Assembly (NCBI GenBank): GCA_030065815.1
Contig: JASJCU010000007.1
Span: 1 to 56,193 of the forward strand
Length of the DNA stretch: 56,193 nt
DNA from: Gammaproteobacteria bacterium
GTDB lineage: Bacteria > Pseudomonadota > Gammaproteobacteria > Chromatiales > Chromatiaceae
Direction of reading: 5' to 3'
The notes under the pieces are model-generated. The model was not told where the DNA came from. It saw only the letters and a program-made list of their open reading frames with translations, and made no database searches. This document shows positions 25,929 to 32,437 of the stretch, one piece after another. The position numbers and the translations under genes were made by a program. Each line of letters begins with the position of its first letter. Position 1 is the first letter of the stretch.

Positions 25929-26837
<909 letters not shown>

Positions 26838-27001: not shown

Positions 27002-27856
27002 ATGGCTGAACACCGACAATCAGGGAGCGCGGCATTGCGCCTGCCGAGACATGCGCGGCTTCCCATCAACCGCTGCAGTCTGCCGCCGCAGATCCTCGGC
27101 GGCCCGACCTTTCAACAACACCCCGCCACGTTGCAGATCGACGGCGTGCAGGCCCTGCACGGACACTTCTTCGAGAGGCTCGATACCATCGCCGATGCGG
27201 CGCGGCGCGCTGCGGCCTTCAAGGACTACATGCGTGCATCCTTCTCCCTCGATCGTCCCGACGAGGCCGGTCTGCAACCGGGGCGTCAACGCGTTCGGCG
27301 CGATCAGGCCGACTATCTGCGCATGCTGCGCGGCTGGATGTTCGATGCCGATGGTCGCGAGGCGGCGGTCCTCAAAGGCTGGGTGGAATCGCGCTTCGGT
27401 CTGCTGCCGCGCTATCACCGGGGTCCACTCGGCGACTTCAGCGGCGCCAACTATCAGTCGTACCTTGCTGCGCGCTCGCACGGGCTCTACAACACCAACG
27501 CGCTGGAGGCGCAGGTCGACCTGCTGTACACCTTCTGCCAGTATGAACTGTCACGCCGTTACCGAGGACAACGGCACCTGCGGCTGTTTCGCGGCACGAA
27601 CCGGATCGAGGCGCACGACGTTCTGGCACGACCGGACCGCGGCAGTTGGATCCTGCTGCTGAACAACCTGACGTCTTTCAGCGGCGACGCCGAGCGCGCC
27701 GACGAGTTCGGCGACCTCATCATCAGCAGCCAGGTGCCACTGGCAAAGATCCTGTACCTGCCCGGCCTGTTTCCAGGGACGCTGAACGGCGAGCAGGAGT
27801 ACCTCGTAATCGGCGGTGTTTACCGAGTCGATACGCACACGCTGTTGGGGCCCTAG
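27002..27856 (+). CDS. draT: NAD(+)-dinitrogen-reductase ADP-ribosyltransferase DraT
   Basis: 284 residues. Recognisable DraT parts: LPINRCSLPPQILGGPTFQQHP, IDGVQALHGHFFERLD, AAFKDYMRASFSLD, GNYQSYLAARSHGLYNTNALEAQVDLLYTF-like core (here GANYQSYLAARSHGLY) and the ADP-ribosyltransferase strand LRLFRGTNRI. DraT uses NAD to modify Arg101 of NifH and so switches nitrogenase off after ammonium or darkness. ATG at 27002 is divergent from nifH. I see no sigma-54 element pointing to it, so expression is probably from another promoter. The reversing enzyme DraG is at 31466-32437. Confidence 0.94.
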   Translation: MAEHRQSGSAALRLPRHARLPINRCSLPPQILGGPTFQQHPATLQIDGVQALHGHFFERLDTIADAARRAAAFKDYMRASFSLDRPDEAGLQPGRQRVRRDQADYLRMLRGWMFDADGREAAVLKGWVESRFGLLPRYHRGPLGDFSGANYQSYLAARSHGLYNTNALEAQVDLLYTFCQYELSRRYRGQRHLRLFRGTNRIEAHDVLARPDRGSWILLLNNLTSFSGDAERADEFGDLIISSQVPLAKILYLPGLFPGTLNGEQEYLVIGGVYRVDTHTLLGP

Positions 27857-27991: not shown

Positions 27992-28007
27992 TGTCTCAGA
28001 TCCAACA
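27992..28007. promoter_or_regulatory. NifA activator site for the SIR2-like operon
   Basis: TGTCTCAGATCCAACA is an exact TGT-N10-ACA, 51 bases upstream of the sigma-54 element at 28059. Confidence 0.75.
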
Positions 28008-28058
28008 ATTCGTGTGCTGGCGATGCCCAAGCGACTGCCCAGTGGTGATTTTTTTGCT

Positions 28059-28074
28059 TGGCCCGCGTCTTGCT
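28059..28074 (+). promoter_or_regulatory. sigma-54 promoter of the SIR2-like operon
   Basis: TGGCCCGCGTCTTGCT on the plus strand has GG and GC ten bases apart; only one -24 base differs from consensus (C for A). The start point would be near 28086, 26 bases before the ATG. Confidence 0.78.
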
Positions 28075-28111
28075 TGATGACTGCCAAACCCATGGGTGAT
28101 CGGAGCAATCG

Positions 28112-28996
28112 ATGAGTGATTCCATGCTGCACGACCTGGCTGCCGGTATCAGGGCCGGCTGCATCGTGCCCTATCTTGGCCCCGGTGTACTCGCCGACGT
28201 GACCAACGCCGGCACGGGCACGGCCATACCGGCCGACAGCGACAGCCTGATACTGGCGATGAACGACGGCAAGCCGATGGCGCCGCGGCTGATGTACGAG
28301 TTCCCGCGCGCGGCGATGGATGTCGAGCTCAAGCGCGGCCGCTCGGCCCTGCAGCGGTTCCTCGATTCCACCTACGGCCAGACGGACTGGACGCGCGCGG
28401 CATTTCATGACTGGCTGGCGAGCGTGAAACCGCACTACGTCATCGATATCAACCGCGACACCCAGCTGCAACAGAGCTATGCCGATACGCCGCACACGCT
28501 GATCCGCGGCATTGCGCGCGTCGCCGGCACCGACTACCGCTTTCGCATCCACAGCTATGACGGCGACCAGTACACCGAGATCGAGCAACAGGCCGTCGAC
28601 CCGTCATTTCCCGTGCTGTTCAAACCGATGGGCAGTCCCCTGCCTGACTCGACCTACGTCGCGTCGGATGCCGACTACGTGGACTACATCACCGAGCTGA
28701 TGGGTGGCTTTGCCATTCCGGATTTCGTCAAGAGTTACCGCAAAGGCAAGAAGTATCTGTTCGCCGGCGTACGAATGACGCGCGACACCGAACGCATGGT
28801 GCTCTCCGACATCATCTACGGCGCCGGCTCCCCGGCCGGGTGGGTACTGTTGCCTGATCCGACGGACAAGGAGCGGCGATTCTGCACCAGGATGGGCCTC
28901 GAGATCGTCGAATCCGACATCACGGACCTGCTGGCAGCCGACCGCCCCGCGATCCTCGCGCACGCCGCGGAAACGGTGCTCGAAGTGGGCTGCTGA
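28112..28996 (+). CDS. SIR2-like domain protein under nif control
   Basis: 294 residues. The N-terminal AGIRAGCIVPYLGPGVLADV resembles the glycine-rich NAD-binding start of SIR2-like (SIR2_2-type) proteins. YVIDINRDTQLQQSYADTPHTLIRG is in the place of the usual T-x-N-x-D segment, and VLFKPMGSPLPDSTYVASDADYVDYI fits the SIR2-like K-x-x-G...DY segment, with Met in place of the His of the usual HG. The classical four zinc-binding cysteines of deacetylase sirtuins are absent, so NAD hydrolysis or binding is more likely than protein deacetylation. It heads an operon with a NifA/sigma-54 promoter next to draT, which also consumes NAD. Its actual activity is unknown. Confidence 0.72.
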   Translation: MSDSMLHDLAAGIRAGCIVPYLGPGVLADVTNAGTGTAIPADSDSLILAMNDGKPMAPRLMYEFPRAAMDVELKRGRSALQRFLDSTYGQTDWTRAAFHDWLASVKPHYVIDINRDTQLQQSYADTPHTLIRGIARVAGTDYRFRIHSYDGDQYTEIEQQAVDPSFPVLFKPMGSPLPDSTYVASDADYVDYITELMGGFAIPDFVKSYRKGKKYLFAGVRMTRDTERMVLSDIIYGAGSPAGWVLLPDPTDKERRFCTRMGLEIVESDITDLLAADRPAILAHAAETVLEVGC

Positions 28997-28998
28997 CC

Positions 28999-29250
28999 GT
29001 GGTCTTCACCCCCTGCCAGGGCAAAACGGCATGTCGCGACGATGGCTCGCGCTGCCGCACTTGCGGGCGAACACTAGCCGAGATCGCCGGGCTGCGCGAC
29101 ATCATGGACGAGATGGCGAACCTGGTCATCGCCTACGACTACGAGAACGTCGAGGAGTTCGCCGCCTACGTCGCACGCAAGCTGCCAAAACTGGTCACGC
29201 ACCGCTGCGCCGCTGCCGAGGAGGCGAGACGACATGCTCATCGCATTTGA
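28999..29250 (+). CDS. small Cys-rich protein, possible zinc or Fe-S binder
   Basis: 83 residues from GTG at 28999, two bases after the SIR2-like stop. Four cysteines lie at the N-terminus (Cys6, 12, 19, 22: TPCQGKTACRD then RCRTCGRTLAEI). The CxxCGRTLAEI end resembles DUF1289-type zinc-ribbon proteins, but the remainder (DIMDEMANLVIAYDYENVEEFAAYVARKL) is different. It overlaps the hemerythrin gene by 17 bases, so it belongs to the same transcript. I cannot assign a function. Confidence 0.68.
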   Translation: MVFTPCQGKTACRDDGSRCRTCGRTLAEIAGLRDIMDEMANLVIAYDYENVEEFAAYVARKLPKLVTHRCAAAEEARRHAHRI

Positions 29251-29653
29251 CGACACCCTCCTGCTCGGCGTTGACGACATGGATGATACCCACCGCGAGT
29301 TCGTCGAGCTGGTCAACCGGATGGGCGATGCCGACACGGTCGGGTTCATCGAGCTCTTCCCTTTGCTCATCGCCCATACCGAACGCCACTTCGAAAACGA
29401 GACTTCGCTGATGCGACAGTCGGGCTTTCCGGCGATTCGCGAGCACATGGATGAACACTTGCGCATACTCGGCGAACTCGGGCGATTGGCGCACAAGGTC
29501 GCCCGGGGATCGGTGACACTCGCGCGCGCCTACGTGCAAGAACATCTGCCCGCCTGGTTCCGACTGCACGCCGCGACGATGGACAGCGCCCTTGCCGCGC
29601 ACGTCAAGCACCAGGGACCGTCGCCGGTGTTCGCTTCCGCCGCCCTTCACTAG
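29234..29653 (+). CDS. bacteriohemerythrin
   Basis: 139 residues with the diiron ligand pattern of hemerythrins: His20, His48-x3-His52-x3-Glu56 (HTERHFENE), His71-x3-His75 (HMDEH), then HLPAWFRLHAATMD providing His and Asp near 112-117. The domain binds O2 reversibly at a non-haem diiron site in the cytoplasm. In a nif operon the likely role is oxygen buffering or sensing near nitrogenase. It sits between the Cys-rich small protein and the CCG-domain fragment. Confidence 0.88.
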   Translation: MLIAFDDTLLLGVDDMDDTHREFVELVNRMGDADTVGFIELFPLLIAHTERHFENETSLMRQSGFPAIREHMDEHLRILGELGRLAHKVARGSVTLARAYVQEHLPAWFRLHAATMDSALAAHVKHQGPSPVFASAALH

Positions 29654-29794
29654 CAGTGCCAGACGACCTCAGCGAACTTCACGAACGGTCGTCGCCGCCT
29701 GTCGCTTTCGCCACCTCTTAAGCTGGCGCCGTCGGCGTTCTCTCTCCCGCTCAGCGAGTTACGCAACAAACCCAACAGGCATGGCGCTTGCGAC

Positions 29795-30265
29795 ATGAAG
29801 ACACCAACGCTGCCGTTCGAGGAACTCATCGCACGCAAGGTCGTCAGCAAACGCTTTCGGCCGCAACCCTCGCCGATCGACACCGGCGGCACACCGTTGC
29901 CCTTTCACGGTCATTGTCATGAGAAGGCCGTCGGCGCGATGAAGACCATGCGCGGAGTGTCCAGGGCAATCACACGGCTGCAGTTCGCGCTGCTCGATTC
30001 CAGCTGCAGTGGCATGGCCGGCGGCTTCGGGATGGACCAAAAGCCTGCCGATGTCGGCGTGGCTATGGCCGAAACGGCGTTGTTTGCCGTATCGCGCCGG
30101 CACCCACAGGCCCGAACCCTGACCGACGACTTCTCCTGCGCGTTGCAGATCCGTGAGGGTCGACAGCACAACGTCATCCACCTTGCACGCCTGCTTCTCG
30201 AGTCGGCGACCGGTGCCGGCAGCAGGAGTGCTTCCCCACGACCAGTCCAGGAGACCACACGATGA
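29795..30265 (+). CDS. stand-alone C-terminal fragment of a CCG-domain (GlpC/glycolate-oxidase-type) protein
   Basis: 156 residues that resemble only the C-terminal end of FAD/Fe-S oxidoreductases such as glycolate or D-lactate dehydrogenases: PFEELIARK, LPFHGHCHEKAVGAM, LDSSCSGMAGGFGM and TDDFSCALQIREG. The usual CCG motif is changed to SCSG. The N-terminal FAD and ferredoxin domains are absent, and the 141-base spacer upstream does not contain them in this frame. It overlaps grxD by four bases and so is translated with it. It may be a decayed gene or a small domain put to new use; I favour a retained partial protein because the frame is intact. Confidence 0.65.
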   Translation: MKTPTLPFEELIARKVVSKRFRPQPSPIDTGGTPLPFHGHCHEKAVGAMKTMRGVSRAITRLQFALLDSSCSGMAGGFGMDQKPADVGVAMAETALFAVSRRHPQARTLTDDFSCALQIREGRQHNVIHLARLLLESATGAGSRSASPRPVQETTR

Positions 30266-30588
30266 AAACGACCGACAAGATTCGCAAGCAGTTGGCCGAG
30301 AACCCGATGATTCTGTACATGAAGGGTTCGCCGACGCTGCCGATGTGCGGTTTCTCGGCGAAGGCCGCGCAGGCCCTCAAGGATGCGGGACACGATTTCG
30401 CCTACGTCGACGTCCTGATGAACCCACAGATCATGCAGGCCCTGCCCGAGGTTTCGGACTTTCCGACGTTTCCGCAGCTGTTCGTTGGTGGCGAACTGAT
30501 CGGCGGTAGCGACATCATCGAGGCAATGCTGGAAAGTGGTAAACTGCAGCCCCTGATCGAAGCCGCACGCCCGGAGACGCCGTCATGA
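30262..30588 (+). CDS. grxD: monothiol glutaredoxin (Grx4/Grx5-type)
   Basis: 108 residues. The active site CGFS is at Cys29-Ser32, preceded by ENPMILYMKGSPTLPM. The glutathione and cluster-bridging segments FPTFPQLFVGGELIGGSDII are complete. CGFS glutaredoxins bind a shared [2Fe-2S] cluster with glutathione and pass it on, often together with BolA-type partners; the next gene encodes one. A nif-linked monothiol glutaredoxin is also known in Azotobacter. It overlaps the next gene by four bases. Confidence 0.92.
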   Translation: MKTTDKIRKQLAENPMILYMKGSPTLPMCGFSAKAAQALKDAGHDFAYVDVLMNPQIMQALPEVSDFPTFPQLFVGGELIGGSDIIEAMLESGKLQPLIEAARPETPS

Positions 30589-30812
30589 AAGCCGAAGAGA
30601 TCGTCGACCGCATCTGCGCCGCCTATCCCGACGCCAAAGTCACGCCCGACGGTGCGGACTGCAATTTTTCGGTGACGGTCGTCAGCGAGGCGTTCGACGG
30701 ACTGTCGCCGATCCAGCGCCAGCGCCCGATTCTGGCGCTGTTCAAGGACGACATCAGCAGTGGCGCACTGCACGCGTTGTCGATCGTCGCCAAGACGCCG
30801 GGCGAGGTCTAG
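30585..30812 (+). CDS. BolA/IbaG-family protein
   Basis: 75 residues. The pattern FSVTVVSEAFDGLSPIQRQRPILALFKDDISSGALHALSIVAKTP is the BolA/IbaG fold with the invariant His in HALSI. The RxxH usually found before the second helix reads RQRP, so one conserved histidine is replaced. BolA-type proteins pair with CGFS glutaredoxins to hold or transfer [2Fe-2S] clusters. It is the last gene of the SIR2-like operon. Confidence 0.85.
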   Translation: MKAEEIVDRICAAYPDAKVTPDGADCNFSVTVVSEAFDGLSPIQRQRPILALFKDDISSGALHALSIVAKTPGEV

Positions 30813-31231: not shown

Positions 31232-31466
31232 CGCCGAGTTCTTCCATGCATTCTTGTAACATCTTCCGGTACTGATCGCAGTAGTATTGCTCTGCCTGCC
31301 GGCGCTTCTCGGGGTCGCCGTCAGTTTCGTAGAAGAAATGCGCGTTGAAACGTGCTGCCGCGTACAGGAAAGCGGCGCTCAGGAAAGGCAAGGCCCAGTC
31401 TTCGCTCAACTGATTGGCGAGGTTGATGAACTCGTCGGCAACCTCGTGGAAATCCGCCTCTTGCAT
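31224..31466 (-). CDS. DUF3144 family protein
   Basis: 80 residues. The sequence FHEVADEFINLANQLSEDWALPFLSAAFLYAAARFNAHFFYE and RRQAEQYYCDQYRKMLQECMEELG fits the DUF3144 family, small helical proteins. The start ATG at 31466 overlaps the draG stop. It may relate to DraG control, but only its position indicates this. Confidence 0.78.
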   Translation of the reverse strand: MQEADFHEVADEFINLANQLSEDWALPFLSAAFLYAAARFNAHFFYETDGDPEKRRQAEQYYCDQYRKMLQECMEELGGA

Positions 31467-32437
31467 CAGTACCCACCCGCGCCGACCACCAGACCGCCGG
31501 CCCTGCAAGTCGCCAGTTCGATCAGCTGCAACGCCTGCTGCCGACAGACAGCCGCGACGTCGGCATCCAGAGCCGCGAGCCAGCGCGTCGGTATCACGGC
31601 GAGACCGTACATGGCGCCCGCAAGCATGCCGGCAATCGCGCCCGTGGTATCCGCGTCGCCGCCCCGATTGACGACATCGACCAGCGTCTCCTCGAATTCC
31701 TTGTGCGCGAATAGGGCCTGAAACACGACCTGCAGCGTATCGACGATCCAACCGCTTGGGTTGGTCACCGTGCGCCGATCGAAGCCGTATTCGGGAGAAC
31801 GTGCGACCAGACGCTGGGCGTGCCCGCGCAATGCCGAATGGGTGCCACCATGGAGCGCCGCAACCAGCATACGCAGCACCGCCTCGCCGCCCGCATCCGC
31901 CGACGGTGAGTTATGCGTCACGTGCGCCTGGCGCCGCGACGCCTCGACCAGTTCGCGCTCGTCGTCCATGCAGTGGCGCAGTGCCACCGGCAGGCAGCGC
32001 ATGCAGGCACCGTTCCCGGCGTTGTGGTCATCCGCCGCCACGTGCGCTACGCCCGTGCGCCTGAAGTGCGAGATGCCGCGCCTGACGGTATTGCCGATAT
32101 CGACGGGCTTGCCGCGCATCCATGCGCTGAATGCCCCCGCAACGGCATCGGGTTCGACACGGCCGCAATCGAGAATGGATCGACCGAGCGCGATTGCCAT
32201 CTCGGTGTCGTCGGTCACCCGCCCCGGCTGCAGGCGCAACCATCCGCCGCCGACGATCTCCCTGTGGACACCGAACCTGTGGCGGATCTCAGTCGGCGTC
32301 ATGAACTCAGTGGTCGCGCCCAGGGCGTCGCCGACCGCCAATCCCAGGTAGGCGGCGACGGCACGCTGCTGCAGGTCGCCGAGCTCCCGGTCGCCGGCCC
32401 CGGCGGCAGGTCTGTCACTACGCAAAACCATCGACAA
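31466..32437 (-). CDS. draG: ADP-ribosyl-[dinitrogen reductase] hydrolase DraG
   Basis: 323 residues of the ADP-ribosylglycohydrolase family. The binuclear Mn/Mg site residues are in GRVTDDTEM and NRGGDADTTGAIAGML. The N-terminal AAYLGLAVGDALGATTEFM is typical. DraG removes ADP-ribose from Arg101 of NifH and restores activity. The start at 32437 directly follows the nifQ stop; a second ATG two codons on is possible. The gene lies in the nifB transcript, not next to draT. Confidence 0.95.
   Translation of the reverse strand: MSMVLRSDRPAAGAGDRELGDLQQRAVAAYLGLAVGDALGATTEFMTPTEIRHRFGVHREIVGGGWLRLQPGRVTDDTEMAIALGRSILDCGRVEPDAVAGAFSAWMRGKPVDIGNTVRRGISHFRRTGVAHVAADDHNAGNGACMRCLPVALRHCMDDERELVEASRRQAHVTHNSPSADAGGEAVLRMLVAALHGGTHSALRGHAQRLVARSPEYGFDRRTVTNPSGWIVDTLQVVFQALFAHKEFEETLVDVVNRGGDADTTGAIAGMLAGAMYGLAVIPTRWLAALDADVAAVCRQQALQLIELATCRAGGLVVGAGGY

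Follow-up and report, generated by a model that had tools for sequence, protein, structure and literature searches.

Introduction

The pnfA gene of Pseudomonas stutzeri A1501 was named and partly characterised in a study that we take to be the work of Yan and colleagues. Here we describe a SIR2-like gene (positions 28112–28996, plus strand) in the nif cluster of a 56,193-nucleotide stretch of DNA from a gammaproteobacterium of the Chromatiaceae (contig JASJCU010000007.1), referred to below, at its full length, as the window, and compare it with pnfA and with other nif-associated SIR2 family proteins.

In the parts of the published report drawn on here, pnfA (PST1325) encodes a 31.7-kDa protein, is linked to nifHDK but transcribed divergently from it, and has a promoter combining a -24/-12 element with a TGT-N10-ACA site, which was judged to be NifA/sigma-54-dependent from reverse-transcription polymerase chain reaction in nifA and rpoN mutants (PMC2820453). 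Homologues were reported only in diazotrophs, with a second subfamily at approximately 20% identity. A non-polar pnfA mutant showed 23% nitrogenase activity at 0.5% oxygen with no significant change in nifH transcripts, while anaerobic mutant cells were similar to wild type; nitrate-supported fixation was abolished, and complementation restored activity (given there as data not shown). The authors suggested a likeness to UspA or to electron-transfer flavoproteins, and the consulted text does not contain the word ‘sir2’ (PMC2820453), with PST_1325 appearing as a SIR2 family protein in a later table (PMC11332353).

Comparable proteins have been noted in other diazotrophs. Rcc03262, a SIR2 family protein of nif cluster A in Rhodobacter capsulatus, was detected in the proteome of the wild type and not in that of a nifA double mutant (PMC6925177), and ZMO1821 of Zymomonas, a presumed deacetylase, was raised under N2 fixation (PMC8600466) and is listed in a further study (PMC8594446), as far as the relevant portions of these sources go. 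Both are presumed to belong to the more distant subfamily defined below, a placement by location and label, not by alignment.

Set against the published description of PnfA, the window gene is likewise a nif-cluster gene divergent from nifH with a TGT-N10-ACA and -24/-12 promoter and a product of similar size (32.5 kDa as against 31.7 kDa), differing in that draT sits between nifH and the gene. On the grounds of position, size, promoter, restriction to diazotrophs and the ‘SIR2 family protein’ label, the window gene is very probably the orthologue of pnfA. A preceding sequence-only reading of this locus had presented it as an undescribed system; given what is published on pnfA (PMC2820453, as consulted in part), that novelty very probably falls away.

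A nif-dedicated protein family

The window gene is a member of a SIR2-fold protein family that is dedicated to nitrogen fixation. Two sets of genomes were surveyed, a class sample (369 genomes of the window's class) and a phylum sample (398 genomes), some genomes being common to both. Within the class sample 29 genomes gave a match, one of them weak (G080), and the 28 strong matches fall into a near subfamily of 19, consisting of the window and 18 others at 59–75% identity, and a far subfamily of nine at 26–31% identity, with no class-sample genome carrying both. NifD was found above cut-off in 31 of the 369 genomes and, counting G240, where NifD is split over two contigs, there are 32 NifD genomes, 27 of which carry a pnfA-family gene (the others being G057, G068, G177, G194 and G322). 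The remaining strong match (G079) adjoins nifH in a genome that is 81% complete. Matches to nif, nifQ, nifX-like or draT genes were present at 15 of the 18 near loci of this sample (all but L038, L040 and L047), with nifH itself in 13 of these 18 neighbourhoods, and nifT was present at all nine far loci.

The phylum sample gave strong matches in 17 of its 398 genomes, 15 of which had NifD above cut-off, the other two (G450 and G628) showing NifE-like or fragmentary NifD matches; the family count excludes the weak matches (G439, G486, G725 and fragments). No strong match occurred in a genome lacking nif genes in either sample, and the nif link of the homologues presupposed by the sequence-only reading thus holds in both. 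Outside the window's class, three families of the phylum sample (f208, f211 and f215) include many NifD genomes that have no strong PnfA match.

A profile built from 27 sequences was then used to collect the best 80 loci from named genomes, of at least 590 relatives, a selection that leans towards close relatives and includes several short contigs. A nifH match was found at 33 of these 80 loci, while at 24 neither a core nif gene nor draT or draG was matched in the fetched DNA, so that linkage is common and not universal. NifD was sought in 25 genomes (those of 23 of these 24 loci, L127 not being included, together with L065 and L066), and all 25 matched the NifD model, 19 above cut-off and six as partial or NifE-like matches. 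Plasmids yielded 72 matches in 72,556 records, from Rhizobium (55), Sinorhizobium (7), Mesorhizobium (7), and Bradyrhizobium, Methylococcus and Paraburkholderia (one each), and the two plasmid neighbourhoods that were read both ran nifA, nifB, 4Fe-4S protein, nifZ, nifT, SIR2. Phages yielded none in 50,697 records.

In a quick tree of 56 rows the near and far subfamilies group together against other SIR2_2 proteins with 97% support in the Shimodaira–Hasegawa-like approximate likelihood-ratio test, a value to be taken with care in view of the quick method and the very long outgroup branches. The alphaproteobacterial nif ‘SIR2 family proteins’, such as the rhizobial gene after nifT, are comparable to the window protein in being nif-embedded and in that the sampled far subfamily joins the window's subfamily on this tree; they differ in having approximately 24–31% identity to it and in carrying Trp where the catalytic Asn would be, and the rhizobial copies come last in a run of nifB, nifZ and nifT. 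Alignment A1 omits L012 (which nearly duplicates L011, is truncated by a contig end and is present in the tree) and L029 (the weak match in G080), while alignment A3 comprises the window and 44 of the best 80 loci, with L087 and L098 dropped for a stop codon within their coordinates and L110, L118, L121 and 31 more lying outside it.

A conserved NifA/sigma-54-type promoter

The gene carries a conserved NifA/sigma-54-type promoter. An exact TGT-N10-ACA match, the NifA-type upstream activator site (TGTCTCAGATCCAACA, 27992–28007, plus strand), is followed after 51 bases by a -24/-12 sigma-54 element (TGGCCCGCGTCTTGCT, 28059–28074, plus strand) that departs from the searched consensus at one position and starts 53 bases 5' of the start codon. 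Both motifs occur in the window at frequencies near chance, with 11 TGT-N10-ACA matches against 6.5 expected (7 of 100 shuffles reach as many) and 14 matches to the -24/-12 pattern at up to two mismatches against 10.8 expected, and the window sequence alone is therefore no proof of regulation.

The case is made by the relatives. The upstream regions that extend over 300 bases or more number 79, the window included (the shorter L074 and L111 being excluded). Of these, the TGT-N10-ACA site is present in 66 as opposed to a mean of 6.4 under first-order Markov resampling (100 rounds), a sigma-54 score of at least 12, on self-made and uncalibrated weights, is reached in 78 as opposed to 15.9, and both elements occur together in 65 as opposed to 1.2. 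In 64 of 78 relatives the highest-scoring sigma-54 site begins 45–65 bases upstream of the start codon. On the strength of these counts the pair in the window, as claimed in the sequence-only reading together with its 51-base spacing, is judged to be real.

In a count restricted to fixed position ranges and leaving the window out, 43 of the 55 best-80 loci with a match to a core nif gene, draT or draG had both elements, as did 16 of the 23 without such a match, some of the latter being short contigs whose nif genes possibly lie past the contig ends. In a control of 424 other open reading frames (ORFs) from the same loci, a sigma-54 element preceded 33, a NifA-type site 27 and both only five. 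The presence of both elements even where no nif match was found indicates that the promoter travels with the pnfA-family gene and not with its neighbourhood alone. Three Thiocapsa loci (L067, L082 and L085) have no nif gene within 10 kb of pnfA and retain sigma-54 and NifA-type sites, with NifD elsewhere in the genome. No sigma-70 promoter was found between 27850 and 30900 in the window.

Fold and catalytic site

The ORF at 28112–28996 encodes 294 amino acids and has a Pfam SIR2_2 match of 34.3 bits against a cut-off of 24.5; no NCBIfam model matched the protein. A search of solved structures with the single sequence returned nothing useful, whereas a profile-based search placed the fold nearest to KomC, ThsA and DSR2, and the SIR2 fold put forward in the sequence-only reading is thereby borne out. 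These three SIR2-domain NADases share the fold of the window protein, but only 10–17% identity with it, and the window gene sits among nif genes, with no PADLOC match in the three proteins scanned. The histidines named in their entry titles, H146 of KomC and H171 of DSR2, correspond by motif to a Met in the window protein. As had also been noticed from the sequence, the cysteines expected of a zinc-binding deacetylase are missing: there are just three (Cys17, Cys258 and Cys294), which means that the four-Cys zinc site of CobB-type sirtuins is absent.

An hhalign profile alignment against 17 other SIR2_2 proteins (probability 96.9%) aligns Asn114 with the Asn of the TTNYD motif and Met173 with the K-x-H-G histidine, a register with which the KPHG motif of the Marinobacterium proteins agrees. 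This His is present in 16 of 17 readable outgroup SIR2_2 proteins, L171 and L182 of the 19-protein outgroup having been left out of the count. In the near subfamily, Asn114 and Asp116 are kept in all 104 sequences and the catalytic His in only two (L117 and L130, both from Marinobacterium), while in the far subfamily Trp replaces the Asn in 19 of 19 sequences and the His is found in seven of 19. Both residues are intact in just 2 of 123 family sequences, a set in which some genomes are counted twice, as a named and an unnamed copy, so that the sequences are not independent, and in which the 80 from named genomes are the closest of the relatives listed. The catalytic Asn and His of the two Marinobacterium proteins may represent an ancestor-like state. 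Classical NADase or deacetylase chemistry as the family-wide function is unlikely as judged from these residues, since the pair is so rarely intact, and the NAD hydrolase proposed in the sequence-only reading is doubtful for this reason and for the replacement of the His by Met173.

Fifteen positions, including Gly23, Glu72, Arg77, His99, Pro172, Gly174, Asp186, Asp188, Arg210, Arg228 and Glu254, are nonetheless invariant in the 123 sequences when gaps are ignored, which indicates that the family is constrained for a role different from the usual sirtuin chemistry. Several near-subfamily proteins end in Gly-Cys (28988–28993 in the window), with a Cys at this place in 5 of the 27 rows of alignment A1, the window included.

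Proposed function

Our favoured interpretation, held with modest confidence, is that the window gene encodes a SIR2-fold orthologue of PnfA in which sirtuin catalysis has been lost or altered, and which acts as an adaptor with a nucleotide pocket that supports nitrogenase in respiring cells. In this model PnfA would act after transcription. The pocket that remains, which perhaps still binds NAD(H) or a ligand resembling ADP-ribose, would serve as a sensor or adaptor, and PnfA may dock on nitrogenase or on its electron-supply chain, so that nitrogenase stays active during respiration. The catalytic pair is broken in each of the two nif-embedded subfamilies, though not in the same way, which favours a non-catalytic role without proving it.

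Several points weigh against this interpretation. The two Marinobacterium proteins of the near subfamily keep both Asn and His, and catalysis is therefore conceivable in at least part of the family. Sirtuins with altered sites and ADP-ribosyltransferase activity exist, meaning that loss of the His is no proof that all NAD chemistry has been lost. The orthology with PST1325 is drawn from description and not from an alignment of the sequences, and the literature consulted, in part, reports neither ligand binding nor a partner for any member of the family. Strong matches are absent from five of the 32 class-sample genomes with NifD and from 26 of the 41 such genomes of the phylum sample, showing that the gene is not essential to nitrogenase as such. 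Finally, the A1501 pnfA mutant still grew on nitrogen-free semisolid medium, according to data not shown in the report (PMC2820453, in the parts consulted).

The principal alternative is that PnfA is still an active enzyme of altered sirtuin type, such as an ADP-ribosyltransferase or a slow NADase, which uses Asn114 and Asp116 to modify either nitrogenase or a protein partner. The conservation of both residues throughout the near subfamily fits such an enzyme, M-class sirtuins do not depend on the usual His, and DraT provides a precedent for NAD chemistry at nitrogenase. However, the far subfamily is also nif-embedded and has uniformly exchanged the Asn for Trp, 102 of the 104 near sequences lack the His, and the gene is found both with and without DraT. 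We consider an altered enzyme unlikely on balance, while regarding it as the strongest competitor to the adaptor interpretation.

It is improbable that PnfA is an NAD-linked partner of DraT and DraG in the on-off control of nitrogenase. The gene directly follows draT in the window, the adjacency to which the sequence-only reading had drawn attention, and lies close to draT in a minority of relatives (13 of the best 80 loci). The adjacency itself stands, but the association is not general: 13 of the 28 class-sample genomes with PnfA have DraT, as do four of the five NifD genomes without PnfA, and a DraT partnership as a general rule was rejected accordingly. Moreover, A1501 possesses PnfA, and DraT and DraG were not found there, as stated in the consulted part of the report (PMC2820453).

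A protein deacetylase acting on nitrogenase or on acetylated enzymes, as suggested for ZMO1821, would fit the ‘SIR2 family’ label and the rise of ZMO1821 with the nif proteins (PMC8600466, seen in part), but is highly improbable; treating these genes as one family argues against the published deacetylase reading. A phage-defence NADase that lies in the nif region by chance, for all that its nearest folds are those of KomC, ThsA and DSR2, is largely refuted by the lack of any PADLOC match among the three proteins scanned, the lack of matches in the phage records and of strong matches outside nif-bearing genomes of the class or phylum samples, and the conserved nif-type promoter.

Returning to the nucleotide-pocket adaptor, a more specific and decidedly more tentative extension can be envisaged, in which a NifA-switched family of pseudo-sirtuins in proteobacterial diazotrophs comprises two lineages that have broken opposite halves of the catalytic pair. 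In such a family the NAD pocket might serve as a non-catalytic NAD(H) gauge that tunes nitrogenase to respiration, forming a post-translational layer of control apart from DraT/DraG.

What is new here is the breadth of the family, with two subfamilies and a presence in most NifD genomes of the class sample, together with its reading as pseudo-sirtuins. In one species, approximately three quarters of nitrogenase activity depends on this gene with its NifA-type promoter, and the consulted portions of the literature offer no mechanism for it. Viewing pnfA and the rhizobial and other nif-cluster ‘SIR2 family’ genes as one SIR2-fold family joins scattered observations and supplies point mutants with which to decide on NAD chemistry. 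It is also relevant to the transfer of nif clusters, where it matters which accessory genes count.

Neighbouring genes

In the window nifT, nifK, nifD and nifH (25929–26807; TIGR01287, 474 bits, above cut-off) lie on the minus strand, followed on the plus strand by draT (27002–27856; Pfam DRAT, 334 bits), from which nifH diverges, and by the SIR2-like gene with its neighbours. Further along, draG (31466–32437; identified by a library match) and nifQ are again on the minus strand.

Downstream of the SIR2-like gene, the sequence-only reading had described an operon of small four-Cys protein, bacteriohemerythrin, CCG-domain fragment, glutaredoxin and BolA-like genes. All of these are present on the plus strand of the window, but a conserved six-gene operon was rejected on the neighbour counts at the best 80 loci. 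The small four-Cys protein (28999–29250), weakly DUF1289-like below cut-off, is encoded at 16 of the 80, always within 3.1 kb downstream of pnfA. Its Cys6, Cys12 and Cys19 are kept in 22 of 22 sequences and Cys22 in 21, the window included; a search for a known function returned none. Bacteriohemerythrin (29234–29653; Pfam Hemerythrin, 33.5 bits) is found at 21 loci, 19 of them within the same downstream distance, and the His, Glu and Asp residues that we take to form its iron site are kept in 25–28 of 26–28 sequences.

The CCG ORF (29795–30265) has no Pfam match and a weak NCBIfam match to GlpC, and occurs at only one of the 80 loci. It aligns solely to residues 336–464 of a 469-residue GlpC-like protein that the relative L030 retains whole near pnfA (L030 1236–2645), and the remainder of such a protein was not found in the window. 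Because only the C-terminal third is represented and the CCG motif has changed to CSG, the piece is probably a decaying remnant of a GlpC-like protein. A gap of 141 bases precedes it, in which a terminator-like hairpin occurs at chance level (two found in the region, 1.8 expected). The Grx4-type monothiol glutaredoxin (30262–30588; TIGR00365, 127 bits, above cut-off) and the BolA-like protein (30585–30812; Pfam BolA, 50.8 bits) are found at five and four of the 80 loci, respectively, and lie elsewhere near nif in a few relatives.

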